A DNA stretch of 44,570 nt from an uncultured Chlorobiaceae bacterium (lineage in GTDB: Bacteria > Bacteroidota > Chlorobiia > Chlorobiales > Chlorobiaceae). Of this stretch, positions 29,822-44,378 are shown in pieces; position 1 is the stretch's first letter; every line of letters begins with the position of its first letter. A program made the translations under genes and the position numbers. Location of the stretch: the NCBI GenBank assembly GCA_903836465.1, contig CAILRB010000067.1, positions 1-44,570 of the forward strand, read 5' to 3'. Under the pieces are notes generated by a model. That model worked only from the letters and a program-made list of their open reading frames with translations, did not search any database and was not told the origin of the DNA.

Positions 29822-31441
29822 ATGGCCCAGTCACCACAACAGAACGGCACCGCAGTAGCGGCAATGCTGCCGAATCCCGCACAGACCTACGACACCGGAT
29901 TCCGGAAAATCATCATCACCCTGACGGTGATCGTCTCGGCCATGCTTGAGCTGATTGATACCACCATTGTGAACGTCGCCATTACGCAAATAAGCGGCAA
30001 CCTCGGCGCCAGCATTGATGATGTTGCATGGGTCGTCACCAGCTATGCCATTGCGAATGTCATTGTGATACCTCTTTCCGGATTTCTCGGTAACCTGCTT
30101 GGACGCAGAAACTACTACATTGGCTCAATCCTGCTTTTTACCGTGGCATCGCTGTTTTGCGGCTTGGCTACCGATATCTGGGCACTGGTCTTTTTTCGCT
30201 TTCTACAGGGTATCGGTGGGGGAGCGCTCCTGCCAACATCCCAGGCCATCCTCTATGAAACCTACAGACCCGAAGAGCGCGGCAAGGCCACAGGCATTTT
30301 TTCGATGGGACTGGTTCTTGGCCCAACCATAGGCCCCCTTCTCGGCGGATACCTTGTGGACTATTTCTCCTGGGAGTGGTGCTTTTTTGTCAATATCCCG
30401 ATCGGGTTACTGGCGGCATGGTCCTCCTTCACCTTTCTTAGGGAACCGAAGGTAAAACACTCGGTTTCAAAAATTGACTGGACCGGCATCGGGCTGCTGG
30501 CGCTCGGCATTGGCTCACTGCAATTCATTCTTGAGCGGGGAGAGTCAAAAGACTGGTTTGAAACACCCTATATCACCGGGTTTACCATCATCGCGGTGGT
30601 CGCGCTTGTTGCATTTGTCTGGTGGGAACTTCACACTGAAGAACCAGCCGTTGACCTGCGCGTGCTCGCCCGCAGCCACAACCTGCCCATAGCGGCGATA
30701 CTTACCTTTGTTGTAGGTTTCGGCCTCTACGGTTCACTCTTTGTCTTTCCCGTCTTTGTACAGCGTCTGCTCGGATTTACTGCTTTACTGACCGGACTGG
30801 TACTCTTCCCCAGCGCCATGGTAACCGGCATGATCTCCATGCCGCTCGGCATAGCAATGCAAAAAGGCATCTCACCAAAAAAGCTGATGGCTGTAGGTAT
30901 GGTCGCATTCATCATCTTCTGCTGGGCACTTGGCCAGCAAACCATGCAGTCAGGGGCTTCCGACTTTTTCTGGATACTGCTCCTTCGTGGCCTGGCTCTC
31001 GGATTCATCTTTATTCCTGTCACCATGCTTGCAGTATCAGGACTGCATGGCAAAGACATCGGACAGGCTACCGGTCTCAATAACATGGTGCGCCAACTTG
31101 GAGGCTCATTCGGTATAGCGCTCATTAACACCTTTATCGTCAAACGGGTAGGAGAGCATAGAGTGGAGCTACTCAGCCATCTGTCGCCTTACGACCCGGC
31201 TGCCGTTGCAAGGCTTGATGCTATAAAGCAGACTGCCACCATGAAAAGTGGCCTTTCGCCCGCTGGTGCAGAGTTGGCCGCATTGAACTCGCTTGAGGGC
31301 ACTCTGACTGTTCAAAGCCACCATCTGGCCTACATGGATGCCTTCATGCTTGTCGCTTTGCTGTTCGCAATTGCCTTGCCGCTGCTCTTCTTTATCAAGA
31401 TAAAAAAAGATCAGAAGACCAATTTGTCAGCCGCGCATTGA
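29822..31441 (+). CDS. emrB: EmrB/QacA family (DHA2) drug:H+ antiporter
   Basis: A 539-residue major-facilitator protein with 14 predicted helices. Motifs are M-L-E-L-I-D-T-T-I-V-N-V-A in TM1 (DHA2 signature), the loop 2-3 motif G-N-L-L-G-R-R, R-F-L-Q-G-I-G-G-G-A-L-L-P in TM4, and the antiporter motif L-G-P-T-I-G-P-L-L-G-G in TM5. With EmrA and TolC upstream it forms a tripartite pump moving drugs or aromatic compounds out of the cell. It starts 20 bases after emrA. It is the last gene before the base-composition change. Confidence 0.93.
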   Translation: MAQSPQQNGTAVAAMLPNPAQTYDTGFRKIIITLTVIVSAMLELIDTTIVNVAITQISGNLGASIDDVAWVVTSYAIANVIVIPLSGFLGNLLGRRNYYIGSILLFTVASLFCGLATDIWALVFFRFLQGIGGGALLPTSQAILYETYRPEERGKATGIFSMGLVLGPTIGPLLGGYLVDYFSWEWCFFVNIPIGLLAAWSSFTFLREPKVKHSVSKIDWTGIGLLALGIGSLQFILERGESKDWFETPYITGFTIIAVVALVAFVWWELHTEEPAVDLRVLARSHNLPIAAILTFVVGFGLYGSLFVFPVFVQRLLGFTALLTGLVLFPSAMVTGMISMPLGIAMQKGISPKKLMAVGMVAFIIFCWALGQQTMQSGASDFFWILLLRGLALGFIFIPVTMLAVSGLHGKDIGQATGLNNMVRQLGGSFGIALINTFIVKRVGEHRVELLSHLSPYDPAAVARLDAIKQTATMKSGLSPAGAELAALNSLEGTLTVQSHHLAYMDAFMLVALLFAIALPLLFFIKIKKDQKTNLSAAH

Positions 31442-31625: not shown

Positions 31626-33028
31626 CCTGAATTATTCATCAAAGCAATAAAAAAAGGGCGCTAAAGACATCGTAATTACTTATATTATTGGTAGTTAAAG
31701 TCAATAAATAAGACGCGATATCAATGCAGCCCTTAGAACAGAATATACTCAAACCAAAGAGTACCCAACAAACATTATTTCATTACGATTATACGTCATC
31801 CGTTGCACCGGTCAAAGGTAAAAAAGTTGCCATTGATTTCCAGGGTGGCAGTATCACCAGCGATGCAGGGGTTTTGCTGTTGAGTGAAACCGAGTCTCAA
31901 GTGAGTATCATCTCAAGTCTGTCAAAGTGTATCCATGATTCCCGGCGTTTTTCTTCGATTACTCATTCAGTCAACGACCTGATGACTCAGCGAATCTTTC
32001 AAATTAGTTGTGGGTATGAAGATGCTAATGATTGCAACACTTTACGCCAAGATCCGGCGATGAAAATGGCTGTTGGTAAGTTACCTGATACTGATGGTGA
32101 TTTGGCCAGTCAACCCACCATCAGCAGACTGGAAAACATGATTACTCGCACAGAACTTTATCGGATGGCAAAAGTGTTTCTGGATCAGTTCCTTGCTTCA
32201 TATAGCGAACCACCAGAGATAATTGTGCTTGATTTTGATGATACTGACGATACGGTTCATGGTCAACAACAATTGGCACTCTTCACTCCTTCGACTATCG
32301 GGCAAAAAACTGGAAGTATCCTCGCAAGGTTGTCGCCAAGGTTGAGATAACCGAAAAGGGATTGTTGAACGTTCGTTTTATCAGTACGGAGATGATGAAT
32401 GCCAAGGCCAAGATGCTCTACGAAGACATTTACTGTGCACGAGGCAATGATGAACTCTGCATCAAGGAGCATAAAACGTACACCAAAAGTGATCGTACCT
32501 CCTGTCACCGTTTTCTTGCCAACCAGTTCCGGCTGTTCCTCCATTCAGCAGCGTATGTGTTACTTCACAGCTTGCGTGCCAACGTGTTACCGGGAACCAG
32601 TCTGGCCAAGGCCACCTTTGAGACCATGCGCTTGAAGCTCCTCAAAATAGGTGCCAGAATCATTGAGCGAAAAACAAAGATCAGCGTCCATTTACCAACG
32701 GCATACCCGTATCAGGGAATCCTGTCAAAATGCCTGGCAATTTTTGCTCACCTGCGTGCCCGGCCATCATAACCAGAACGGAGCAGGGGGCGGAATGAAA
32801 ATTGGTTAACAAAAGGCGGCACGATATATTAGGCTGCAAGGGTAGAGTACGCAAACGTGAGCATGCTGAGAGATCTTTTACCTCATTTCAGGTACCCTGT
32901 TTGTAAGGGATGAACCACTGATACTCGATTTCTTCCCTACCATAAACATGAATGGCCAAGATATGCTCGGAGTGGTTTCCATTTTGCCTCAAAATTTTTG
33001 TTCCACAGAGGCTCATGAATAATTCAGG
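31626..33028 (+). mobile_element. IS1380-family element, internally deleted (1403 bp)
   Basis: The ends are perfect 14-base inverted repeats: CCTGAATTATTCAT at 31626-31639 and its complement at 33015-33028. They are flanked by CTAA on both sides (31622-31625 and 33029-33032), a 4-base target duplication as expected for this family. Inside is a broken transposase (31724-32772). The right-hand 240 bases (32773-33014) hold no recognisable gene. With intact ends it could still be moved by a full-length relative elsewhere in the genome. It marks the boundary between moderate-GC core genes and the AT-rich cluster. Confidence 0.9.
31724..32772 (+). pseudogene. IS1380-type transposase, central deletion and frameshift
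   Basis: The first frame (31724-32350) has the family pattern I-D-F-Q-G-G-S-I-T-S-D-A-G near residue 38, Q-P-T-I-S-R-L-E-N, and the catalytic strand I-V-L-D-F-D-D-T-D-D-T-V-H-G-Q-Q-Q. Directly after that point the frame changes. The C-terminal part resumes in another frame as D-Y-R-A-K-N-W-K-Y-P-R-K-V-V-A-K-V-E, running to 32772 with S-C-H-R-F-L-A-N-Q-F-R-L. The segment normally between these, carrying the second catalytic aspartate, is missing (about 90-110 residues by family length). The junction is at about 32275-32300. The product cannot be active. Confidence 0.9.
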
Positions 33029-33121: not shown

Positions 33122-34345
33122 CTAAATGTGAGTCATAGTACTAAAGAATTGATCTAATTGATCAAGCCCTTCTTTAACTCTATATTCACCGCCAATACTT
33201 AATCTAAATACCCAAAGATTATTATTGATATTTTCGGGAATAAAAAAGTCACTTCCTATCAAATTCAATTTATATTCTCTTGCTTTATTCAGAAATTCAA
33301 GCGGATTATACAAGTCTTGAATTTTAGGGTCATTAACTTCAATTAGAGAAAAAATAGACCTGCCAGAACACAGAAATTCAACACTTTGGTATTTAGCATT
33401 TAATTCGCTAAAAACATGTTGCTTTAGTTTTATTCTTTCTTTAACCTCTTGAGTAATTAGATTAGGATTGAATCGGTTTAAAGCTTGGATAAGATTTAAG
33501 CCCAGTTTTGCCTGGATATTACTGATCCCACCGCGAGAATTAACAACTAGCTTTTTGAAGTTATTCATCAGTTGCTCTGGACCAATAACATAACCTAACC
33601 TCAAGCCGGTTGCTGCATATTTTTTTGTGAAACTATCTACAATAAATAATCTTAATGGATTAAAATAGTTTCCAATCCAATAATCTTCATCGATAAAGGA
33701 ATGACCAATATTATCAATAATGATATAAAATCCATGTTTTTCAGATAAAGTAGAAATTTTTTCCAACTGAGATTCAGCAATTTTAAAACCAACAGGGTTT
33801 GAAGGGTCATTTAAAATAACTGCTCTTGGTACATTTCCTGTATTTATTTTTTCCTCAATTAGATCACCTACATGGTTAATATAGTTTTTGACGGGATAAC
33901 AGTATAATGGGATCTGATTTACAGATGTTGAATAGAAAACGCTCCAATAAGGAAATGATGGAACTGGATACATTATTATATCGCCTGGGTTACATAACAA
34001 TATTGAAAGATTATATAGCCCATCACATCCTCCATTAGTTAATACATAATTCTCTTCTTTTGTACTCAATTGAAATTCATTAAATACATCAACAATTAAT
34101 AACTTTATTAATTCTATTAATCCGTTATTGCCAGGAAGGTTTGAGAATAAATGAGTTAACCCTAAAGTAGAATCTGAAATTATATTTGGATATATCGCAT
34201 TTAAACCATTTATGTTTTTTATATCACCTATTGCAAAGTTATATTGATCTGTTGTATTTCCTTCCTTTTCAATTGACAAAAAATCATAAATTATTTTAGT
34301 GAAATCTAATGTATTTATATAGCATGATCTTTCTGAAATATTCAT
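33122..34345 (-). CDS. Class I/II aminotransferase of the radical SAM/transport operon
   Basis: A 407-residue fold-type I PLP enzyme. T-N-G-G-C-D-G-L-Y near 103-111 binds the cofactor phosphate, N-D-P-S-N-P-V-G near 179-186 carries the conserved Asn, and Asp211 (I-I-I-D-N) contacts the pyridine nitrogen. The Schiff-base Lys is K241 in S-F-T-K-K-Y-A-A-T-G-L-R-L-G. F-R-L-S-I-G-G near the C-terminus supplies the carboxylate Arg. The usual D-E-x-Y tyrosine is replaced. It resembles histidinol-phosphate/aspartate-type aminotransferases, but the substrate is not readable. It is the last gene of a five-gene operon, starting 4 bases after the ABC gene. Confidence 0.88.
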   Translation of the reverse strand: MNISERSCYINTLDFTKIIYDFLSIEKEGNTTDQYNFAIGDIKNINGLNAIYPNIISDSTLGLTHLFSNLPGNNGLIELIKLLIVDVFNEFQLSTKEENYVLTNGGCDGLYNLSILLCNPGDIIMYPVPSFPYWSVFYSTSVNQIPLYCYPVKNYINHVGDLIEEKINTGNVPRAVILNDPSNPVGFKIAESQLEKISTLSEKHGFYIIIDNIGHSFIDEDYWIGNYFNPLRLFIVDSFTKKYAATGLRLGYVIGPEQLMNNFKKLVVNSRGGISNIQAKLGLNLIQALNRFNPNLITQEVKERIKLKQHVFSELNAKYQSVEFLCSGRSIFSLIEVNDPKIQDLYNPLEFLNKAREYKLNLIGSDFFIPENINNNLWVFRLSIGGEYRVKEGLDQLDQFFSTMTHI

Positions 34346-34349
34346 AAGA

Positions 34350-35927
34350 CTAATTTCTAACTATTGTATAATCCTTAATTAGGTACAAATAATCACAAAC
34401 TTCACTCAAACGTTTATCATGAGATGTAATAATGATCAGTTTTTGCTTTTTTAAAATCTTGAGAATAGATAATAGTCGTTTAAAATTTGTTTCGTCTAGT
34501 CCTGTTGTTGGTTCATCAAATAGCAAAACATACTTTTCACTAAGAATACTCATATATATGCAAAGTATTTGAGCTTCGCCACCGGATAGAGTAATTGCGG
34601 GTTTGTACCAAATATCTGAATCAAAACTAAATATTGGTTCAATATTAAACTTGTTTAGTTTTTGAGATAATTCATTAATAATTAATTTATCATCAATTAT
34701 TCCGAAATTATTTATAGATTTCAACGATATTGACAGGTTTTCGACAAGAGACAAATTTGTGGCTATAATATTAAAAGGATTCTGTTCAATTAGAAATGCA
34801 TCTCTTTCAAATGGGTGCTTACTTACAATGCTTTCATTTTTCAATATAATATCTCCTGAGGTAGGGAATAATTTCCCATTTAGGAGTTTCAATAAGGTTG
34901 TTTTTCCAATACCATTTGAACCTTGAATTATGTTAATTCCATTATCAAAAGAAAAGGAAGCGTTTAAAAATATTTGTCTATTTTCACTCCCTAATTTATA
35001 ACTCATATCGAGATTGGATATAACAATCACGGATTTTGCGTCAGAAGCTTTGTGCGATATTCTATTGATTGAGAATCGGATTTTATCATAGGGAATCAAA
35101 ACAACAAATATAAACGCACTAAATATCAGCTTCCAATAAACAGGGTTTGAAGTATAGAATATTACCAGAATTATTATTATCTGAAAAAATAATGTTCCGA
35201 AAATTGCTTTTACAACAACTGTGTCAAATAATTTAAACCTTTTTGAAATCTTTAGCTTCTCTGATTCAAAAAGTTTATCAAAAGCTAAAAAGGAACCTAA
35301 TGCTACGATTAAAAATTCAAAACTACCACCACTTCTCGCATTACCTTCACTGTGGACGTACAAAAATGCACCTATTCCGTATAGTACAGCAACTAAAAGA
35401 TATGTGATATATGAAATTATGGCCGGATTTTTTGATGTATTAATTAAGTTGTTTGCTCCGAAACCACGTATTTCGACACCAAAGTAAGTTTTGAAAAAAA
35501 AGAAAAACGCACTAACTATTAAGAATTGAAGAATAACAAGCCATAAAGGTATATTTAGAAAATTATTAAATATTGATGTTAAATTTAAAGATATAGACTC
35601 TCCTACCCAAATTACTGAAATTGAATGGGCTGCGAATGAAAAAATAATTCCTACCATAATTGGATTAATCTTGACTATGTAAATCAAAGAGTAAACAATT
35701 GTGGACAGTACAATACTTGTGAGTATTGTAGCTGCTAACGAGATGCTATAAGAACTTGTGAGATTCCATACAATTGCAGCAACAATCCCATTGATAATTA
35801 TTATTCCATCAATACTAATATCCAGAATCTTTAAATAAGAATGTAAAATCCCTATGCCGATAACAAAGGGTAACCATATAAGAGATTCCCTAAATGCAGA
35901 TATTAGTAATTGGGTGAATATTTCCAT
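34350..35927 (-). CDS. Fused ABC transporter permease and ATPase (TrpY-TrpZ type)
   Basis: A 525-residue fusion. Residues about 1-290 hold 8-9 hydrophobic helices of the branched-chain-type permease superfamily. The permease keeps the TrpY-like L-D-I-S-I-D-G early motif and I-N-P-I-M-V-G-I-I-F. Residues about 305-525 are an ABC ATPase: Walker A G-S-N-G-I-G-K-T-T near 335, signature L-S-G-G-E-A-Q near 445, Walker B Y-V-L-L-F-D-E-P near 467, and H-loop T-S-H-D. These are separate genes in ordinary TrpXYZ systems. The ATG directly follows the stop of the radical SAM gene. With the upstream binding protein it forms a complete importer. Confidence 0.9.
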   Translation of the reverse strand: MEIFTQLLISAFRESLIWLPFVIGIGILHSYLKILDISIDGIIIINGIVAAIVWNLTSSYSISLAATILTSIVLSTIVYSLIYIVKINPIMVGIIFSFAAHSISVIWVGESISLNLTSIFNNFLNIPLWLVILQFLIVSAFFFFFKTYFGVEIRGFGANNLINTSKNPAIISYITYLLVAVLYGIGAFLYVHSEGNARSGGSFEFLIVALGSFLAFDKLFESEKLKISKRFKLFDTVVVKAIFGTLFFQIIIILVIFYTSNPVYWKLIFSAFIFVVLIPYDKIRFSINRISHKASDAKSVIVISNLDMSYKLGSENRQIFLNASFSFDNGINIIQGSNGIGKTTLLKLLNGKLFPTSGDIILKNESIVSKHPFERDAFLIEQNPFNIIATNLSLVENLSISLKSINNFGIIDDKLIINELSQKLNKFNIEPIFSFDSDIWYKPAITLSGGEAQILCIYMSILSEKYVLLFDEPTTGLDETNFKRLLSILKILKKQKLIIITSHDKRLSEVCDYLYLIKDYTIVRN

Positions 35928-37043
35928 TTAAAATGATTTTTTAAAATTCGGAACTAATTTATTTGACTCAATAATGTTGATTATATTTTCATAACCAGGT
36001 GAATGATACTGAAATTGAGAATCTATGAAAGTTCCAAACTTTAATTCTTTATAACCTCCTGGCGTTAAACTACAACAGAAATTGGTATATGTAGCTGCAT
36101 GACTTAATAAATCACCAATCATATTATTGTCTTCACGAGTGGTTGCTACCATTTCAGCATAAGGAAAAGCCAAGCGATATAATGCAGCCGCCAACAATAA
36201 TTCTTGATTTGATACTTCAAATCCTTTGAAGTCAGACATACAACCTGCTGTGATTTGAAGTCTTGGGATGCCAATTAATTTTATTTTAAGATTATACTTT
36301 AATTCAAGATACTTACCATGGTCAATTACCATTAATACATCTTCTATAAATTTATTAAGGCCAAACAAAATACCCAAGCCAACTTTTTTCAAACCTGCCA
36401 GAATAGCCCTTTCAACAGCATCAATTCGATAATTGTAATTACCTTTTTTTGTGTTAAGCGGGTGTATTTTTTTATATATATCTTGATTGTAGGTTTCTTG
36501 AAAGTGAATCATTGTATCTTTCTCAGTAGCAAACTGCTTATATTCATCGGTTGATAGAGAATCAAGGCAGAAAGCTGCGCTTTTCCCTTTAGCACGAATG
36601 GCGCTCATCATCTTTCTTAAAAGATTAAGGTCATAACTTACACTACCCGCGACCAATTCTATTGTATTGTATCCAAGTTCACCAAGAATATCTAATTCTT
36701 CAAGAAATGTTTTATAGTTATTTTTGCCTCTGGAAATTACGGTATTTGAAGAAGCCATACCACAATATTTGCAATTATTTTGACATCTTGTATCAAAATA
36801 TATTGGCACAATGAAGCCCACATCATTACAATAATACCTTCTATATTTCATAGATGCTGATAATACAATTTTTTGAATATATATATTATCAGCATTATTA
36901 AGCAAATACGCCGCATCAATTAAATCTATTGGCAATTTGCCGTCAAGTTTGGCTAAAATATTATCAAGAAAGTTTGCTGTATGACCACTCATTAATAGGT
37001 TGGTTATGAGCTTATATCGTTCATCAACAATTTCAGAATACAT
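35928..37043 (-). CDS. ThiH/HydG-like radical SAM protein
   Basis: About 371 residues. The [4Fe-4S]/SAM motif C-Q-N-N-C-K-Y-C has cysteines 87, 91 and 94. Downstream features are those of the tyrosine-lyase branch (ThiH, HydG) rather than BioB: Q-E-T-Y-N at 182-186, then I-H-P with a K-x-x-Y-x-x-R-x-D-A-x-x-R-A spacing, V-G-L-G-I-L-F-G-L near 221-229, I-P-R-L-Q, a T-R-E motif near 302 and a late P-G-G-Y. HydG's C-terminal cluster cysteines are absent. The family cleaves or rearranges aromatic amino acids. No thiazole or hydrogenase genes are nearby, so the product is unknown. ATG at 37043 falls one base after the preceding stop; a GTG at 37064 is possible. Confidence 0.85.
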   Translation of the reverse strand: MYSEIVDERYKLITNLLMSGHTANFLDNILAKLDGKLPIDLIDAAYLLNNADNIYIQKIVLSASMKYRRYYCNDVGFIVPIYFDTRCQNNCKYCGMASSNTVISRGKNNYKTFLEELDILGELGYNTIELVAGSVSYDLNLLRKMMSAIRAKGKSAAFCLDSLSTDEYKQFATEKDTMIHFQETYNQDIYKKIHPLNTKKGNYNYRIDAVERAILAGLKKVGLGILFGLNKFIEDVLMVIDHGKYLELKYNLKIKLIGIPRLQITAGCMSDFKGFEVSNQELLLAAALYRLAFPYAEMVATTREDNNMIGDLLSHAATYTNFCCSLTPGGYKELKFGTFIDSQFQYHSPGYENIINIIESNKLVPNFKKSF

Positions 37044-37044
37044 A

Positions 37045-38040
37045 CTACTTATATATGATTGCACCTTTTAATAAACTGTCAGGAAATGAAATTCCAAATC
37101 TTTTAGCATTGGTAATATTGATGTATATGTTAGCCTTTTCAGCTACTGACATCGGCATTTTAGAAAACTCAATATTATTGATTAAATAGTCTGATGCCAA
37201 TTTTGCAGTCATTTTTCCAACTGTTTTATAGCTAACAGAAGCAGAAGCAATAACTCCTTTTTCTCTGACAGTTCCCTCGTCTAAAGAGAATACTGGTATA
37301 GGTCTTTTGTTCTCAAAAGCTAATTTTACTATTACCGGGGCTTTTACCAATACATTTTTATCGTGAGGAAGAAACATTGCATCTACGCCTTTAAGGAGTA
37401 GTGATTTAGTAACGGAACTTATATCTTCAATATTATTTATAATAGCCATTTCAGTTTCATAACCAGCACTCTTCAGTTCATCAGATAATGTATTTGCAGT
37501 TATTTCTGCATTAAGGTCACTTTTTGTATAAATTATACCCACTTTCCTAATTACACAATTTGATTGTTGAAGTAGTTCCTTACTAACAACATAATAACTT
37601 TTCTTTGGAGTATCACCCACTATGCCAATATTATTAATTCTTGGCGGCTCAATACCAATACTTTTTAGGCTCTCTATTTTACTTGGGTCAGACAACGCAC
37701 TTAAAATTGTTGGAGGTAAATCATTAATGAATTTTGAACTTACTGCAAGCTCACTCATTTGGGTTCCGAATACTACTAATACATCCGGTTTATTTAAAAG
37801 AGCACTTTTTAATACTGTTTCAAAACGAGCGGGATCACCTTCTGCACTGTAATAATTAAATGATATCTCATTTGTATCAATATTGGTTTTAATGCCCTCT
37901 AAATAGTCATTAATGGCATCTATCATTACCGGAACTACTACCGTTAAACGTTTTTTCTTATTATTATTATTTTGACTATTACAACCGCCTATTGAAAGTA
38001 TGATTACAAAGGCAAATAGAATTGAGATGATTTTTTTCAT
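37045..38040 (-). CDS. ABC substrate-binding lipoprotein (TrpX / ABC_sub_bind type)
   Basis: A 331-residue lipoprotein with lipobox S-I-G-G-C (Cys20) followed by an Asn/Lys linker. The mature protein matches the ABC_sub_bind (PF04392) family that serves tryptophan and tyrosine uptake. It has an A-E-G-D-P-A-R-F-E-T segment, P-D-V-L-V-V-F-G-T, a hinge strand K-V-G-I-I-Y-T-K-S-D near 168-177, and G-V-D-A-M-F-L-P-H-D-K-N-V near 215-227. A periplasmic binding role, with the fused permease/ATPase as its pump, is firm; the ligand is inferred. The ATG overlaps the previous gene's TGA (ATGA). Confidence 0.9.
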   Translation of the reverse strand: MKKIISILFAFVIILSIGGCNSQNNNNKKKRLTVVVPVMIDAINDYLEGIKTNIDTNEISFNYYSAEGDPARFETVLKSALLNKPDVLVVFGTQMSELAVSSKFINDLPPTILSALSDPSKIESLKSIGIEPPRINNIGIVGDTPKKSYYVVSKELLQQSNCVIRKVGIIYTKSDLNAEITANTLSDELKSAGYETEMAIINNIEDISSVTKSLLLKGVDAMFLPHDKNVLVKAPVIVKLAFENKRPIPVFSLDEGTVREKGVIASASVSYKTVGKMTAKLASDYLINNIEFSKMPMSVAEKANIYINITNAKRFGISFPDSLLKGAIIYK

Positions 38041-39404
38041 GACAATATTTTTTTTGATTTTATCGAATTGTAATTGTATGAATTATAGTTGTTATAACTA
38101 CTGTAATCCAAATAATTCGAACTATAATTATTAGCGCTTTGATAATAATTATTTGAAGAGAAAAACTCTATTTCAATCTTATTAAATTCCAAAATGAATT
38201 CATGCATAGATTTTTCATCGACAGGATAAAAGACAGGTTTAAGAAGGTCTGATTGATTATTCCATAAAATGTTTTTAGTAAGAAATGCAAGTTTTGTTTT
38301 AGGATGAATACAGATCCCAGTGAATAAGCTAACGCTTTGAGGTTTAGTTTTACGAATAAACTCTAGCGTTTCATCTAAGGTTGATTTTGTTTCGCCCGGT
38401 GCACCTACCAAAATTGAATAACAATATTTAATACCATTTAAATCACAAAGTTCTATTGCGTTTTCAATATCTTGGATTTTGTAATTTTTATTCAAACTAT
38501 GTAACATGGCATTAGAGCCACTTTCGACTGTTAGTTGAATTGGTGGTAATTTTACATTTGTTTTCTTATAGAAATCAAGATATTCCTGTGTAATACCTTT
38601 AGGGTCATGAAAAGCATGCCAGGTGATTTTGATTTTGTTGAATTGGAGTAATTTTAAAATATCAACGGCATTTCTTGTCGGTAAATTAAATACACTATCT
38701 GTAAAATATATTTCTTTAAAACCTAATGCTATTAATTGCTCAATCTCTTCAATCACATTCTTCGGGTTTCTTATTCTAGGCTTGCTCCCCTCAATAACCG
38801 GATAGCTACAGTATGAACAATTTGAGGGGCATCCTCTTTTCGTTTGAACATTTCCTATTACATCTTTATCTACGTATAATGATGTGTTTTTAAGATTTCC
38901 CCTAGTATAGTTCTTATCCCAAAACTCATCTTTGGAAAGCATGGTGTTATATACTTTGCCAACTGTAATAGCTCCCTGCTTATAATCATCGATTAATTTC
39001 ATAATTGCTTTCTCTCCATCACCAGCAATAGCCACATCGCCTTTGCAATACTCTAATACTTCATTAGGGTATAAAGATAATCCCGATCCTCCTAATGCAA
39101 TTATGGTCATTGAATTTATTGAGGGTCTTAAAGTGTTTACTAATTTTTTGATAGTTGGTAAATACCAGTCACCATCTTTAACATCATCCATCACGTTTCT
39201 GATGGAAATTCCAACTATAGAATAATAATTATGACTTAATAATTCTTGTATTGTTTTTTCCCAGTTATTATCATCAATAAATTGAAGATCGACAAAATCA
39301 TAATCAATATTATGAATCAATAATTCTGATGCAATATAATCCAAGCCAATAGGAAAAACCGGATTAAATTTGCTTGGATTGGCATTAATTAATAATAATT
39401 TCAT
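38037..39404 (-). CDS. B12-binding-domain radical SAM protein with Tyr-rich tail
   Basis: A 455-residue protein. Residues 1-140 form a Rossmann-like cobalamin-binding domain that lacks the DxHxxG base-off motif, as in many class B radical SAM enzymes. The [4Fe-4S] cysteines are 192, 196 and 199 (C-P-S-N-C-S-Y-C), followed by F-T-D-S-V-F-N and the V-E-S-G-S motif near 309. The last 40 residues (416-455) are low-complexity, with nine Tyr among Asn and Ser. Such enzymes typically methylate unreactive carbons or rearrange carbon skeletons. It opens the operon, preceded by a 67-base AT-rich gap after the nucleosidase pseudogene. Confidence 0.87.
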   Translation of the reverse strand: MKLLLINANPSKFNPVFPIGLDYIASELLIHNIDYDFVDLQFIDDNNWEKTIQELLSHNYYSIVGISIRNVMDDVKDGDWYLPTIKKLVNTLRPSINSMTIIALGGSGLSLYPNEVLEYCKGDVAIAGDGEKAIMKLIDDYKQGAITVGKVYNTMLSKDEFWDKNYTRGNLKNTSLYVDKDVIGNVQTKRGCPSNCSYCSYPVIEGSKPRIRNPKNVIEEIEQLIALGFKEIYFTDSVFNLPTRNAVDILKLLQFNKIKITWHAFHDPKGITQEYLDFYKKTNVKLPPIQLTVESGSNAMLHSLNKNYKIQDIENAIELCDLNGIKYCYSILVGAPGETKSTLDETLEFIRKTKPQSVSLFTGICIHPKTKLAFLTKNILWNNQSDLLKPVFYPVDEKSMHEFILEFNKIEIEFFSSNNYYQSANNYSSNYLDYSSYNNYNSYNYNSIKSKKILS

Positions 39405-39471: not shown

Positions 39472-40585
39472 TTAATCGTTCAGGTTTGTTATAAGCATGT
39501 AACATAAATGTTCTAATTCAGCATAAAACTCCATCACTGCTTAAGTTTCTTCCGAAGATATTTTCAAATCACTTTTTGCATAAATTATTTCCTTTAAGGA
39601 TATAAGCATATTATGAGCTTCAGTTCCATATTGTGTGCTTGGATATTATTTGCTATATCTAAGCCTCTGGTTTTATGTGATAAATTAAATTGACTTTCAT
39701 CAGTCAATTCTTTAGTTACAATTTCTGTTATATTTTGATCCTCAAATTCTTTATAAACTAGCCAAAAATCAAATGCTGAAGCAGAGTCCGATGCAATTAA
39801 TTTAACATCTTCTGATCTTTTATTATCGCTTAAAACATCATCGCTATCAGTTTTTTTCTCACTAATATCAGAAATACCACGTATCACACCGAATAAAAAA
39901 GGACTGTTACTTTGTCGATTTTCACATACTTTTGCAAAACTATACCCTTCTGTTTCAACTACTGAAGTATCATTGTGGTGTTCTGTTAATATTTGGCCAG
40001 TTGCTGAATCATAATCTTCAATTATTTTCTTCCCTGAAGCAATATCTCCAATATCAGCTTTTAAATTTTCTAAACTATTCTGTAATTTTTCAAGAATATC
40101 TTTTTTATTAATTATGGATTTCAAATCCCTTTTATTTCTTTCAGCTCTTGCTATTCCTAACAAAGGAATACTTGGAGTAACCGTTTCTGGCCTAACGTTG
40201 AATTTTCTAATTCTGACTTACCCCCTTCATATGAATATATCTTACAAGCAAATATGACATCACCACTTGAAAAATCATGAGGTTTTCTTGAACCGGCGAT
40301 TCCTACAAAAAGTGAAATATCTGGTTCAACTGCTATTAAAGCTCTTTCTGTTTCTAATGTCGCCAAGGTTTTTACTTGACCACATTCTTTTATAAAAATG
40401 GATGCTATATCTCTCCCAGATTGTTTAAAAATGCCCTTTTGATATTCTGTACCATTAATTGCACTATTTTTAATATCGGATAAATGACTTAAAACGGCAT
40501 TATATTCTTCTTTTATTGCTGCGAGGATGACCACTTTTAAGCGCTTCACGAGAATTGATACCGTAGTAAAAAGGCTACACATCAA
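39472..40585 (-). pseudogene. Nucleoside phosphorylase/MTA-SAH nucleosidase-like gene, multiply frameshifted
   Basis: The N-terminal frame (40585 to about 40190) has V-V-I-L-A-A-I-K-E-E-Y, V-G-I-A-G-S-R and G-D-V-I-F-A, typical of MTAN/PNP_UDP_1 domains. It shifts near 40190-40205 into a second frame continuing R-P-E-T-V-T-P-S, then E-T-E-G-Y-S-F-A and V-I-R-G-I-S-D. Near 39615 a third frame takes over (Q-Y-G-T-E-A-H-N-M-L-I-S), runs to a TAA at 39541, and continues in frame past it to 39472. Two frameshifts and a nonsense codon mean it is decayed, unless the assembly is wrong. Such nucleosidases recur as parts of bacterial conflict systems, fitting the TIR gene upstream. Confidence 0.8.
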
Positions 40586-40809: not shown

Positions 40810-42774
40810 TTACAGCAATTCGGTAATTCTGTCGATCAGTGCAAGATATTGCTCTTCCTGCTCTGGTTTTAAAAGTTTGGAGAGCGGTGTATCAGGATCG
40901 TTTACGGCTTGAAATCTTGAGAGCTTACTCTTGCTGAATCGGCACGGCTCGACGATAAGTGACAAAATGGTTGTTCCGCTACTTTGAGCAGACTCAAGGA
41001 GCGATGGCAGTTCGTTGTTCATGATAAAATCGGATGCAAGAAAATCGGCGCTGACCAACATGATGCTGACTTTTGCAGATGCAAGAGCAGCTTCAATTTC
41101 TTTTTGCCATTCCGTCCCGGCTTTTATTCTTGTGTCATCCCACACATCCGCCTCAATTCCCTCGTGCTTCAGTACCTTGAGATGAACCTGTACGCGCTTC
41201 AGATACGCATCGTTTTTGTGTGAGTAACATACAAATACAGTTGTTCTTTCCATAGCAGTGTTCCTGTCTTGATTTGGGTATTTCTGTTTTTCACTTAACA
41301 TTGTTTTTTGCTCCTGATTAGATCCTTGATGTGATTCTGTATTTTTTCTATTCTCATTTGTTAACTTATTAAACTTTTTCATAAATTTAGCCGTAACATT
41401 ACCGTCAAATACAAAATTATCACGCTGTGATTGCGTCTTACTCTTCCAAATCTTAAACTCAAAATATTTTACAAATTTTTTCTTTTTTTCCTCATCATAT
41501 ATAAAATGAAATGAAAGGTAAAATGGATATAAATCAGACCCGTAAGGTGGCACATCAAAATATCCTCCAGCAATTCTTGGTATTCCTAACTTATTATCTT
41601 CATGGGTTCGGTCTATATGAATGAAGTTCCCTGGTTTAAAATCCGTGATATTATGAGTGTGATCATGTATTAAAAGAAAGAAATTTTTTTCCCTAAGATA
41701 TTGTTCAAGTTTATTATTAAATTGCATATACTGATCATCCTTGGTAAATATATCATAGTGGCAATAAATTACTTTAATATCTTTTTTAAAATAAGAATTA
41801 TTATCAGCATGTTCTTCAACCATTTTAATTATTGCATCGTATGCTGATTCTGATATTTCAGGTAAAATTGTTGTATCAATTTTATGAAAACATATATTTA
41901 AAATCGTAATAGGAATTTTTAAATCCCGGATTATTGATGAAGTTATGCCTAATTCGTTGTTATTTTTTCCCTTTCCATTGCTTATATTCCCCTTTTCTAT
42001 TAATTTAATGAACAAGAAATCCTTGTCAGAGCGGCTTTTAGTATATATGAGCTTCGAAACATCTTTTAAACTTGAAAGATTATCAAATATCACTGAAATT
42101 CGATCATCATCATTATTTAACAAATAATCACCTCCAAGTATGCAATAATCAGGAGAATTGCATTCTTTGTTTGTTAAATTTATAGTAATTTTTTTTTCAT
42201 TTAGAGCTCTAAATCCAGGAATATGTATTGTTTTTATAAAAGGTTTGCCAGATAATGCGTGTTGTAAAAATGCATTCTTCTCTAAATCACGAATGTCTTC
42301 TATAATATTTTTACATGTTTCATCTATAATGTCTGTCTCTGAGCTGGTATTGATTTTTTCACAATACTTGCTATTGTGTATATACTTTAAGTTTTTTGTA
42401 TTTTTAATGCCATTAAAAGACTTGCGTATATCATCAATAATTTCAACTGAATCAGATTGAACTCCATTCAGCAAAATCCATGGCTTTCCTATTCCATTTT
42501 CATATAATTCACTTAAAAGACAGTATAAACTGGATCTATTACTGTAATAATTACTAATGAAATCAATTAGAATTAAATCACATTGAAAAGTCGTGCTTTC
42601 CATTTTCTCAAAAAAAGAAACTATATTGCGAATCTGCCCATCATATAATTCAATAGCTTGCAGTTTTCTATTAGTTCCAGCAAGCCTTTCATATATTATT
42701 TTTTTTGCTTCCCTTGAAACTGCTTCCCTATTGTTGTAAAGATAAACAATCTCATTTATTCTGGTTTTATTCAT
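40810..42774 (-). CDS. Multidomain TIR effector-type protein
   Basis: A 654-residue protein. Residues about 511-654 are a clear TIR domain: V-F-V-C-Y-S-H-K-N-D, then W-D-D-T-R-I-K-A-G, S-I-M-L-V-S-A-D-F-L, and N-N-E-L with Glu588 where bacterial TIR NADases have their catalytic glutamate. Residues 1-165 are strand/helix alternating with D-L-I-L-I-D-F, resembling a degenerate response-regulator receiver. The middle (about 170-470) is not recognised. It has L-G-G-D-Y-L, V-I-Y-C-H-Y-D and H-D-H-T-H-N, loosely like metallophosphoesterase ligands. A flexible Gln/Asn/Lys linker (about 475-505) precedes TIR. It lies 8 bases after the GAF/GHKL gene. NAD cleavage as an immune output is inferred. Confidence 0.8.
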   Translation of the reverse strand: MNKTRINEIVYLYNNREAVSREAKKIIYERLAGTNRKLQAIELYDGQIRNIVSFFEKMESTTFQCDLILIDFISNYYSNRSSLYCLLSELYENGIGKPWILLNGVQSDSVEIIDDIRKSFNGIKNTKNLKYIHNSKYCEKINTSSETDIIDETCKNIIEDIRDLEKNAFLQHALSGKPFIKTIHIPGFRALNEKKITINLTNKECNSPDYCILGGDYLLNNDDDRISVIFDNLSSLKDVSKLIYTKSRSDKDFLFIKLIEKGNISNGKGKNNNELGITSSIIRDLKIPITILNICFHKIDTTILPEISESAYDAIIKMVEEHADNNSYFKKDIKVIYCHYDIFTKDDQYMQFNNKLEQYLREKNFFLLIHDHTHNITDFKPGNFIHIDRTHEDNKLGIPRIAGGYFDVPPYGSDLYPFYLSFHFIYDEEKKKKFVKYFEFKIWKSKTQSQRDNFVFDGNVTAKFMKKFNKLTNENRKNTESHQGSNQEQKTMLSEKQKYPNQDRNTAMERTTVFVCYSHKNDAYLKRVQVHLKVLKHEGIEADVWDDTRIKAGTEWQKEIEAALASAKVSIMLVSADFLASDFIMNNELPSLLESAQSSGTTILSLIVEPCRFSKSKLSRFQAVNDPDTPLSKLLKPEQEEQYLALIDRITELL

Positions 42775-42782
42775 AAGTGAAT

Positions 42783-44378
42783 TCAGATTTGAATATGCAG
42801 CTCAACAGAGTTTGTTTTTTTGTTACTATATATATTCAGTTCACAGTTCTCTTGAAATAAATAATCAATTATATAAAATGGAATGCCACAGTACTTTTTA
42901 ACATTACCATCGACTATTTCAATTGGTTTAGGATAATCTATATCTGTGAATATCTCATTAAGGTATTTTGATTGCGGAAATTCCCCATTATCTATTATTT
43001 CAATTATCAAATCACTATTTTTTCTTTTTACGTATGTGCTTATCTTAAATTTCGTTTCGTTTTTTTTGTTCGTTTTTAATAATCTTATGCAATTATCAAT
43101 AGAAAAAATATATATTGAGATCATGGCCTGATGCAAAATGTCGTCATAGAATTCAATACTTTCAGGGCATGTTTCCTCAATTGCTAACTCAAATTCTAAC
43201 TCAATCGTATTATTAATTTTGAATTCTTTTGATATATAGTCAGTGTAAATACTTTTTATATCATGAATTGCACTAGCAATAACATTCTTCACGCTATTAA
43301 TTACTGACCTAGGCCTTATAAGCATAAGATTATAATTCACAAATTCTTTATGGAGTAGCTTCATATACTCATAAAAAGTATTTTGCACTATTTCCGTCTG
43401 AGTTGTCAATTTATCAATTTCACTTTTCAAATCTTTATCTGTTTTTATCAGAATTATTTTATTGATAAATCGTTCTGTTATAATTTTTTGAGAAATAAAC
43501 ATTTTTCTCTGATTCAGAATCAATGCTATAATATGACTTAAATTAATTAGTAATTTTCGATCGTATGGCAGAAAGCCACCTTCAATATCAACTCCAATAT
43601 TTAATACCCCAAGAACTTTATTCTGATAAATCAATGGTATAGTCAACTGGCTTTTTGTCGCTTCAATTACACGTTCATAAAGGTTATGCGTAGGGTTATC
43701 CACTGATTCAACATAGTATGGCATCTTTTTAGATGCTACAGAATCAATAAGAGTTTTTCTGGCACCTATTGTTAATGGTTGATTAGAAAACTTATTAAAC
43801 ACATATTTCTCTTTGAAGAGAGAATTTCCATAATTAATTGCCTTAATGTCAATTCTATTTGCAAATCTCTCGAAAACGCCTATTTCAGTACAATGGGCAC
43901 TGCTATTATATCCTTCAATGAGAATTTTAAGTACATCAATCATACCATCAATATAGTTATTGTTTGATATATTAATTTCAGATATTGCGCCATTGAATTC
44001 TATAATATATCGCTCCCGATGTATTTTAATATTTAAAAGAAAGTTAATTATAATTGCATTTAACAAATGAATCAACGATGAAATAGCATATTTATCAATA
44101 TCAATTTCACTTTTATTGATATCTAGCATAAACACACCATCGGCATCATTTTTAATGCCGATATTTATTATCAGTATATTGCTTGAGAACTCAGCGAAGT
44201 TCTGTATAATATCATAAAATAAGCATTGACTATCTTTTTCTAATAAAATATCTTTTAATAAATCTTGTTTAAGTATTTCGATATATTCTTTTTTTTCAAC
44301 TATTTCGTATGCGGCAAAATGTGATAACTGCTTGGGTTCTGGTGCTTTGTGGCTGTCGTCTTTTTTTAACAACGGCAA
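42783..44378 (-). CDS. GAF domain plus degenerate GHKL-ATPase sensor protein
   Basis: About 531 residues. A GAF domain lies near 160-290, ending L-T-I-P-L-I-Y-Q-N-K-V-L-G-V-L-N-I-G, a common GAF core strand. A helical region follows. The C-terminal 130 residues look like a worn histidine-kinase-type ATPase: L-I-I-E-I-I-D-N-G-E replaces the D-x-G-x-G box, and no H-box histidine is evident. It could be a pseudokinase sensor for the TIR protein that follows 8 bases on. The only start in this frame is TTG at 44378. The frame stays open upstream to 44438, with protein-like sequence (W-W-E-R-D-S-R-T-Y), so the true 5' end may be lost. Confidence 0.65.
   Translation of the reverse strand: MPLLKKDDSHKAPEPKQLSHFAAYEIVEKKEYIEILKQDLLKDILLEKDSQCLFYDIIQNFAEFSSNILIINIGIKNDADGVFMLDINKSEIDIDKYAISSLIHLLNAIIINFLLNIKIHRERYIIEFNGAISEINISNNNYIDGMIDVLKILIEGYNSSAHCTEIGVFERFANRIDIKAINYGNSLFKEKYVFNKFSNQPLTIGARKTLIDSVASKKMPYYVESVDNPTHNLYERVIEATKSQLTIPLIYQNKVLGVLNIGVDIEGGFLPYDRKLLINLSHIIALILNQRKMFISQKIITERFINKIILIKTDKDLKSEIDKLTTQTEIVQNTFYEYMKLLHKEFVNYNLMLIRPRSVINSVKNVIASAIHDIKSIYTDYISKEFKINNTIELEFELAIEETCPESIEFYDDILHQAMISIYIFSIDNCIRLLKTNKKNETKFKISTYVKRKNSDLIIEIIDNGEFPQSKYLNEIFTDIDYPKPIEIVDGNVKKYCGIPFYIIDYLFQENCELNIYSNKKTNSVELHIQI

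Follow-up and report, generated by a model that had tools for sequence, protein, structure and literature searches.

A five-gene operon of a Chlorobiaceae bacterium in which importer genes alternate with genes of radical and pyridoxal phosphate enzymes

The operon described here lies in a contig (CAILRB010000067.1, GenBank assembly GCA_903836465.1) of an uncultured Chlorobiaceae bacterium, of which the whole stretch from position 1 to 44,570 was analysed and is called the window hereafter; the host genome measures 2.77 Mb at roughly 50% GC, about 65 species of its genus have been sampled, and the BchE that it encodes marks a green sulfur bacterium type, presumably Chlorobium or something close to it. 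Five open reading frames follow one another on the minus strand from 39404 to 33122, each of them initiated by ATG and free of internal stop codons. Their products, in gene order, are as follows.

38037-39404, minus strand: gene 1, B12-binding radical S-adenosylmethionine (SAM) protein, 455 amino acids (aa); PF04055 and PF02310, CX3CX2C at residue 192
37045-38040, minus strand: gene 2, TrpX-family substrate-binding lipoprotein, 331 aa; PF04392 and NF041285, lipobox Cys20
35928-37043, minus strand: gene 3, ThiH/HydG/NosL-superfamily radical SAM protein, 371 aa; TIGR02351, CX3CX2C at residue 87
34350-35927, minus strand: gene 4, fused TrpY-like permease (residues ~1-290) and TrpZ-like ATPase (~300-525); ABC_tran and BPD_transp_2
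33122-34345, minus strand: gene 5, fold-type-I pyridoxal 5'-phosphate (PLP) enzyme of the class I/II aminotransferase family, 407 aa; PF00155, PLP Lys241

The junctions between these genes measure, in order, -4 (an ATGA overlap), +1, 0 and +4 bases, and the genes of the importer alternate with those of the enzymes inside the operon. Interleaving at a spacing of -4 to +4 bases argues for one functional unit, and on the same spacing it seems reasonable to suppose that the five genes are co-transcribed. The catalytic motifs are intact in all five products: the survey found the radical SAM CX3CX2C, the Walker A and B motifs, LSGG and H-loop of the ATP-binding cassette (ABC), the PLP lysine and the lipobox cysteine. 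Five intact, interleaved and nearly overlapping genes are far beyond what chance would assemble. An earlier note on this DNA, drawn from the letters alone, had described five minus-strand genes with overlaps or tiny gaps and had named their product types; the layout is as it said, and Pfam and NCBIfam models agree with the product types at family level. All five products miss the curated NCBIfam equivalog cut-offs widely; judged by their sequences, they are family members without an assignable named function, and labels such as TrpX, TrpYZ and ThiH are to be read at the level of the family. That note was also right that no thi, hyd or nos partner genes stand in the operon, according to its Pfam and NCBIfam annotation, and that none of the described pathways fits it.

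The product of gene 3 combines a Radical_SAM domain with a weak BATS domain, and its cluster cysteines are C87, C91 and C94. Among the NCBIfam models it scores best with thiH (TIGR02351, 186 bits for a cut-off of 380), followed by HydG (127 bits, cut-off 312), HydE (58 bits), PylB (48 bits) and the NosL type (46 bits, cut-off 400). Its solved relatives (4rtb, 4wcx, 7pd1, 6htk and 4r33) rank in the order HydG, ThiH, NosL, the best simple sequence match being the HydG structure 4rtb with an E value of 2.8e-34. In ThiH, R300 contacts both the amino and the carboxyl group of tyrosine, an equivalent arginine being present in NosL; E158 contacts the tyrosine carboxylate, HydG having N there and an acid at position 128 instead; and the phenolate is held by T299, S318 and S321 with R306 behind, these phenolate-binding residues being strictly conserved in ThiH and HydG (PMC9046217). 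Gene 3 keeps the equivalents of R300 (R303), T299 (T302) and Y80 (Tyr82). Three of the four side chains of the phenolate crown are changed (R306 to I309, S318 to N321 and S321 to C324), and neither of the alternative acidic partners is left, C159 standing in place of E158 and V131 at position 128, in a family where R306, S318 and S321 are conserved across nearly all the relatives that were fetched. The spacing from TRE to GGY is 24 residues, as in ThiH and HydG, with GGY at 329-331, so that the crown substitutions do not stem from a local misalignment; the anchoring of position 159 is looser, since a one-residue loop deletion lies just after it.

With its CX3CX2C motif and R303, gene 3 can be assigned from sequence to the radical SAM alpha-amino acid lyase superfamily. 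The enzyme would still recognise the alpha-amino-carboxylate end of its substrate, the side-chain end of which would not be a tyrosine phenolate, and the substrate is probably something new. Tyrosine, which the earlier note had entertained for this enzyme, is disfavoured by the loss of the crown and of the two acidic partners. In a maximum-likelihood tree the ThiH rows form a clade that excludes gene 3 (support 99/100), which places it outside ThiH, with the caveat that its branch is very long and that a topology test does not reject its union with ThiH (approximately unbiased test, AU, 0.52). Its place relative to HydG or NosL is not settled by the tree: the pairing with NosL is weak (56/94), and the union with HydG is not rejected either (AU 0.44). 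The cell encodes its own ThiH (427 bits) on another contig (C44), where ThiG-like and ThiF-like genes adjoin it, and gene 3 is therefore not needed for thiamine; no HydG was found in the genome.

On the importer side, the product of gene 2 matches PF04392 (ABC_sub_bind) with 84.5 bits and the TrpX model NF041285 with 121 bits for a cut-off of 390, and it was aligned to the structures 3lkv, 6hni and 3lft. Members of PF04392 bind aromatic amino acids, namely tyrosine for CD0873, phenylalanine for VC_1101 and tryptophan for SP1069, and their selectivity is set by the pairs Glu263/Ala and Tyr279/Gln (PMC6816091). At these positions gene 2 has Asp254 (Glu263 in CD0873) and Tyr271 (Tyr279 in CD0873), which places it nearer to the binders of tyrosine and phenylalanine than to the tryptophan binder. 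The clamp residues of the Streptococcus suis TrpX are T108, A127, T129, D152 and N233 (PMC9382623), and the first three are kept in gene 2 as Thr93, Ala115 and Ser117, the last with a change from threonine to serine. Gene 4 scores 66 bits with ABC_tran and 21 bits with BPD_transp_2. Its N-terminal half is 22% identical to the permease of a TrpXYZ-type cluster of Ilyobacter (E value 4e-4) and its C-terminal half 31% identical to the ATPase of that cluster (E value 3e-16); the two are separate proteins in Ilyobacter, whereas gene 4 is a fusion in the order permease-ATPase. The ATPase motifs are complete, with Walker A at 336, LSGG at 447, Walker B at 468 and H503. Fusions of this kind are known among the related branched-chain amino acid importers.

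Genes 1 and 5 would supply the tailoring steps. Gene 1 exceeds the cut-offs of PF04055 (77 bits) and PF02310 (37 bits) and carries the cysteines C192, C196 and C199, so that, read from its sequence, it has the architecture of a B12-binding radical SAM protein, and cobalamin binding is predicted. Cobalamin-type chemistry is native to this green sulfur cell type through BchE, which is encoded in the genome (754 bits). The best NCBIfam model for gene 1 is TIGR04072 (273 bits, cut-off 360), aligned over residues 3-415, ahead of BzaD (132 bits), PhpK (128 bits) and the tryptophan C2-methyltransferase TIGR04428 (93 bits, cut-off 500), and the best solved relative is TsrM (6wte). By analogy with the B12 radical SAM class, in which methyl transfer is the commonest reaction, gene 1 may be a methyltransferase. 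Past the TIGR04072 profile lies a C-terminal tail (approximately residues 415-455, positions 38037-38160, minus strand) rich in Asn, Tyr and Ser. Gene 5 matches PF00155 (Aminotran_1_2) with 90 bits, its best NCBIfam model being GntC (93 bits, cut-off 415), and shows the hallmarks of class I/II enzymes: the Schiff-base Lys241, the ring-binding Asp211 and the C-terminal carboxylate-binding Arg381. The tyrosine of the DxxY motif, which contacts O3' of PLP in aspartate aminotransferase, is replaced by Gly214. With this replacement, and with a cyclodehydratase as the closest curated model, transamination is not to be assumed for gene 5.

The composition of the window changes sharply at the operon. 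GC content is about 45-53% in the left 31 kb and mostly 28-34% from 33 kb onward; it is uniform across the five genes (29-32%), as is GC at third codon positions (GC3, 21-25%), which reaches 51-60% in the left-hand genes. In six congeners the similarity to the window stops at the end of the flanking gene of the major facilitator superfamily (MFS) at 31441, and the operon is missing there. Two broken genes flank the operon.

31724-32772, plus strand: broken DDE_Tnp_1_4 transposase bordering the low-GC block on its left, the middle of the profile (positions ~161-304) being deleted
39594-40585, minus strand: broken methylthioadenosine/S-adenosylhomocysteine (MTA/SAH) nucleosidase-like gene between the operon and a TIR gene, covering PRK05584 positions 2-98 and then 127-205 in two frames

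Owing to the low GC, the adjoining broken transposase and the end of congener synteny at the MFS gene, the block that carries the operon looks horizontally acquired, and on the sequence it is most likely a genuine chromosomal insertion and not a contaminant. An assembly chimera was considered and dropped: the TIR domain past the operon shares 82% identity with its counterpart in a congener, and the segment there has a host-like GC. A defence reading was likewise set aside, since what PADLOC recognises in genes 1 and 4 is their general superfamilies, and the adjoining TIR gene is separate.

On the TIR side GC climbs to 0.47. The protein encoded there (40810-42774, minus strand, 654 aa) ends in a TIR domain of raised GC (residues 491-654) that is 77-82% identical to TIR domains of congeners; its low-GC N-terminal part has no match in congeners, as if domains had been exchanged where the island ends. 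Eight bases upstream of this gene lies that of a GAF-domain protein (42783-44378, minus strand), probably of the same unit, and the contig ends just past it. The split nucleosidase-like gene either decayed recently or owes its frame break to the assembly; enzymes of this type cleave by-products of radical SAM reactions, and PADLOC also counts relatives among defence effectors. What seems to be the same MFS gene is followed immediately downstream, in a genome of a related genus (L074:1403-7066), by a cluster of the TrpXYZ type that comprises a binding protein, a permease and an ATPase of 531 aa. The orientation is the other one and the identity only 26%, and the site is perhaps a shared insertion hot spot.

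The literature search found no published description of such an operon, which is a previously undescribed combination of genes. Searches of Bacteroidota gave no orthologue of genes 1, 2, 3 and 4 in 394, 296, 394 and 296 genomes, respectively. Scanned with a pattern, which can reveal close relatives only, 84,980 species genomes yielded no orthologue of gene 3 and a HydE-like protein as the sole match; in the phylum of the HydE-bearing genome, genes 3 and 1 had no orthologue in 194 and 244 genomes, a weak negative obtained with no positive control. Viral contigs held no orthologue of any of the five genes, and plasmids gave only distant ThiH/HydG and TrpX-type proteins, genes 1 and 4 being unmatched. 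Genes 1-4 have thus not been met apart in the searched genomes, since they have not been met at all. No riboswitch or T-box that might hint at the substrate was found.

Taken together, we tentatively propose, at a confidence somewhat below even, that the operon is a horizontally acquired and self-contained unit for the import and conversion of an amino-acid-like compound other than tyrosine. The lipoprotein of gene 2 and the fused permease-ATPase of gene 4 would bring in an amino acid of the aromatic type or a compound closely analogous to one. Gene 3 would then grip the alpha-amino-carboxylate end via Arg303, and a 5'-deoxyadenosyl radical would abstract a hydrogen, leading to cleavage or rearrangement of a substrate whose side chain would be other than that of phenolate-bound tyrosine. 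Finally, the B12 radical SAM protein of gene 1 would methylate the compound or modify it by other radical chemistry, and gene 5, as a PLP enzyme, would transaminate, eliminate or cyclise to yield a small metabolite or a cofactor fragment. We infer, rather than observe, the order of these steps, the amino-acid-like character of the substrate, its methylation and the kind of product that results. The earlier proposal that the operon imports and remodels an aromatic amino acid thus survives in part: a TrpXYZ-type importer is indeed interleaved with enzymes in one operon, and tyrosine as the substrate of the radical SAM protein is not supported. It is tempting to go further and to suggest, with still less assurance, that gene 3 is the founding member of a separate lineage among the radical SAM amino acid lyases, acts on a new substrate and serves a pathway to which all five genes are dedicated, one that runs through import, radical cleavage, methylation dependent on B12 and PLP chemistry to an undescribed small metabolite or cofactor fragment.

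Several observations weigh against this proposal. The residue map of gene 3, although anchored on both sides, comes from alignments at 25-30% identity, and single-sequence structure models (predicted local distance difference test, pLDDT, 37 and 37) were too poor to serve as a check. The five genes lack the support of conservation or co-inheritance as a unit, no orthologue of genes 1-4 having been found. The tip of gene 2 resembles that of a tyrosine binder and gene 3 is without the tyrosine residues, so that the clues name no single substrate. Furthermore, the amino clamp of gene 2 is altered, Asp152 being replaced by Gly142 (the next residue is Asp) and Asn233 by Lys228 (the next is Asn), and the ITQxxEHP motif found near the N terminus of its relatives is absent; the ligand of gene 2 may therefore not be an amino acid at all. 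From its sequence, it may be either an aromatic amino acid or an analogue in which the amino group is missing or altered. These changes are the main ground for an alternative that we regard as unlikely but serious, in which the importer carries a non-amino acid (e.g., an aromatic acid, a vitamin precursor or part of a cofactor) that the enzymes finish or salvage, the substrate of gene 3 being either an amino acid of the cell's own making or something derived from what is imported. The doubt about transamination by gene 5, whose closest model is a PLP cyclodehydratase matched far under its cut-off, would suit it as well. The retention of the three other clamp residues and of the aromatic-pocket Tyr271 speaks against this alternative.

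Tyrosine might be imported after all, gene 3 converting it to p-cresol and dehydroglycine that would feed a product of the thiazole, glycine or diatomic-ligand type. The likeness of the gene 2 tip to CD0873 (PMC6816091), the first rank of the thiH model and the retention of Arg303 and Thr302 favour this, but the substitutions in the crown and at the acidic partners, together with the absence of ThiG, ThiS, HydE and HydF beside gene 3, make it improbable. A shade more doubtful still is an indolic route, in which gene 1 methylates tryptophan, gene 5 gives the pyruvate and a NosL-like gene 3 yields a thiopeptide-type side group or an indole acid. TsrM, the best solved relative of gene 1, is itself a tryptophan C2-methyltransferase, and gene 3 belongs to the superfamily that contains NosL and lacks R306 as NosL does (PMC9046217); yet the model scores for NosL and TIGR04428 fall far below their cut-offs, gene 3 keeps the extra residue at strand beta8 that NosL does not have, and gene 2 has Tyr271 instead of the glutamine that selects tryptophan. 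That the cluster is fortuitous, foreign genes of varied origin having been joined by transfer with no shared pathway, may be invoked from the mosaic region with its broken transposase, broken nucleosidase gene and chimeric-looking TIR gene, but is highly improbable given the four tight junctions, the interleaving, the uniform composition and the intactness of all five genes.

ThiH, HydG and NosL are the few understood examples of radical SAM enzymes able to cleave the carbon skeleton of free amino acids. A relative in which the amino-acid-binding arginine is kept and the residues recognising tyrosine are changed, accompanied by an importer and two tailoring enzymes of its own, would offer a bounded set for the direct discovery of a new substrate and product. 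The binding protein provides a short cut, since ligands can be screened ahead of any reconstitution of the radical chemistry.

Compared with known systems, the import-and-conversion unit proposed here shares parts with several of them. With ThiH, gene 3 shares homology over its whole length, the CX3CX2C and QETY motifs, the residues equivalent to Arg300, Thr299 and Tyr80 and the GGY spacing; ThiH differs in having R306, S318, S321 and E158 and the partners thiG and thiS, and gene 3 scores half the curated cut-off and lies outside the ThiH clade. HydG is the nearest by simple sequence search, but possesses a C-terminal domain with a second cluster (~463-475 aa versus 371 aa) and an acidic residue at 128 (V131 in gene 3), and its partners HydE and HydF are not beside gene 3. 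NosL resembles gene 3 in the equivalents of its Arg323 and Tyr90 and in the absence of R306, and differs by one residue fewer at strand beta8, where gene 3, in a comparison limited to a NosL fragment, has the 24-residue spacing of ThiH and HydG, and by the model score of 46 bits versus 400. The TIGR04072 family ("lipid biosynthesis B12-binding/radical SAM protein"), BzaD, PhpK and TsrM share the architecture of gene 1 over residues 3-415; unlike what the name of TIGR04072 would suggest, no lipid genes lie near the operon, and the tail of gene 1 exceeds the profile. Class I/II aminotransferases and GntC have in common with gene 5 the fold type I, Lys241, Asp211, the NP motif and Arg381, gene 5 departing from the aminotransferases by Gly214 in place of the DxxY tyrosine. 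Finally, importers of the TrpXYZ/CD0873 type consist of the same families of binding protein, permease and ATPase and share the selectivity positions occupied here by Asp254 and Tyr271, whereas in the operon two clamp residues and the EHP motif of the binding protein are changed and permease and ATPase are fused into one protein.

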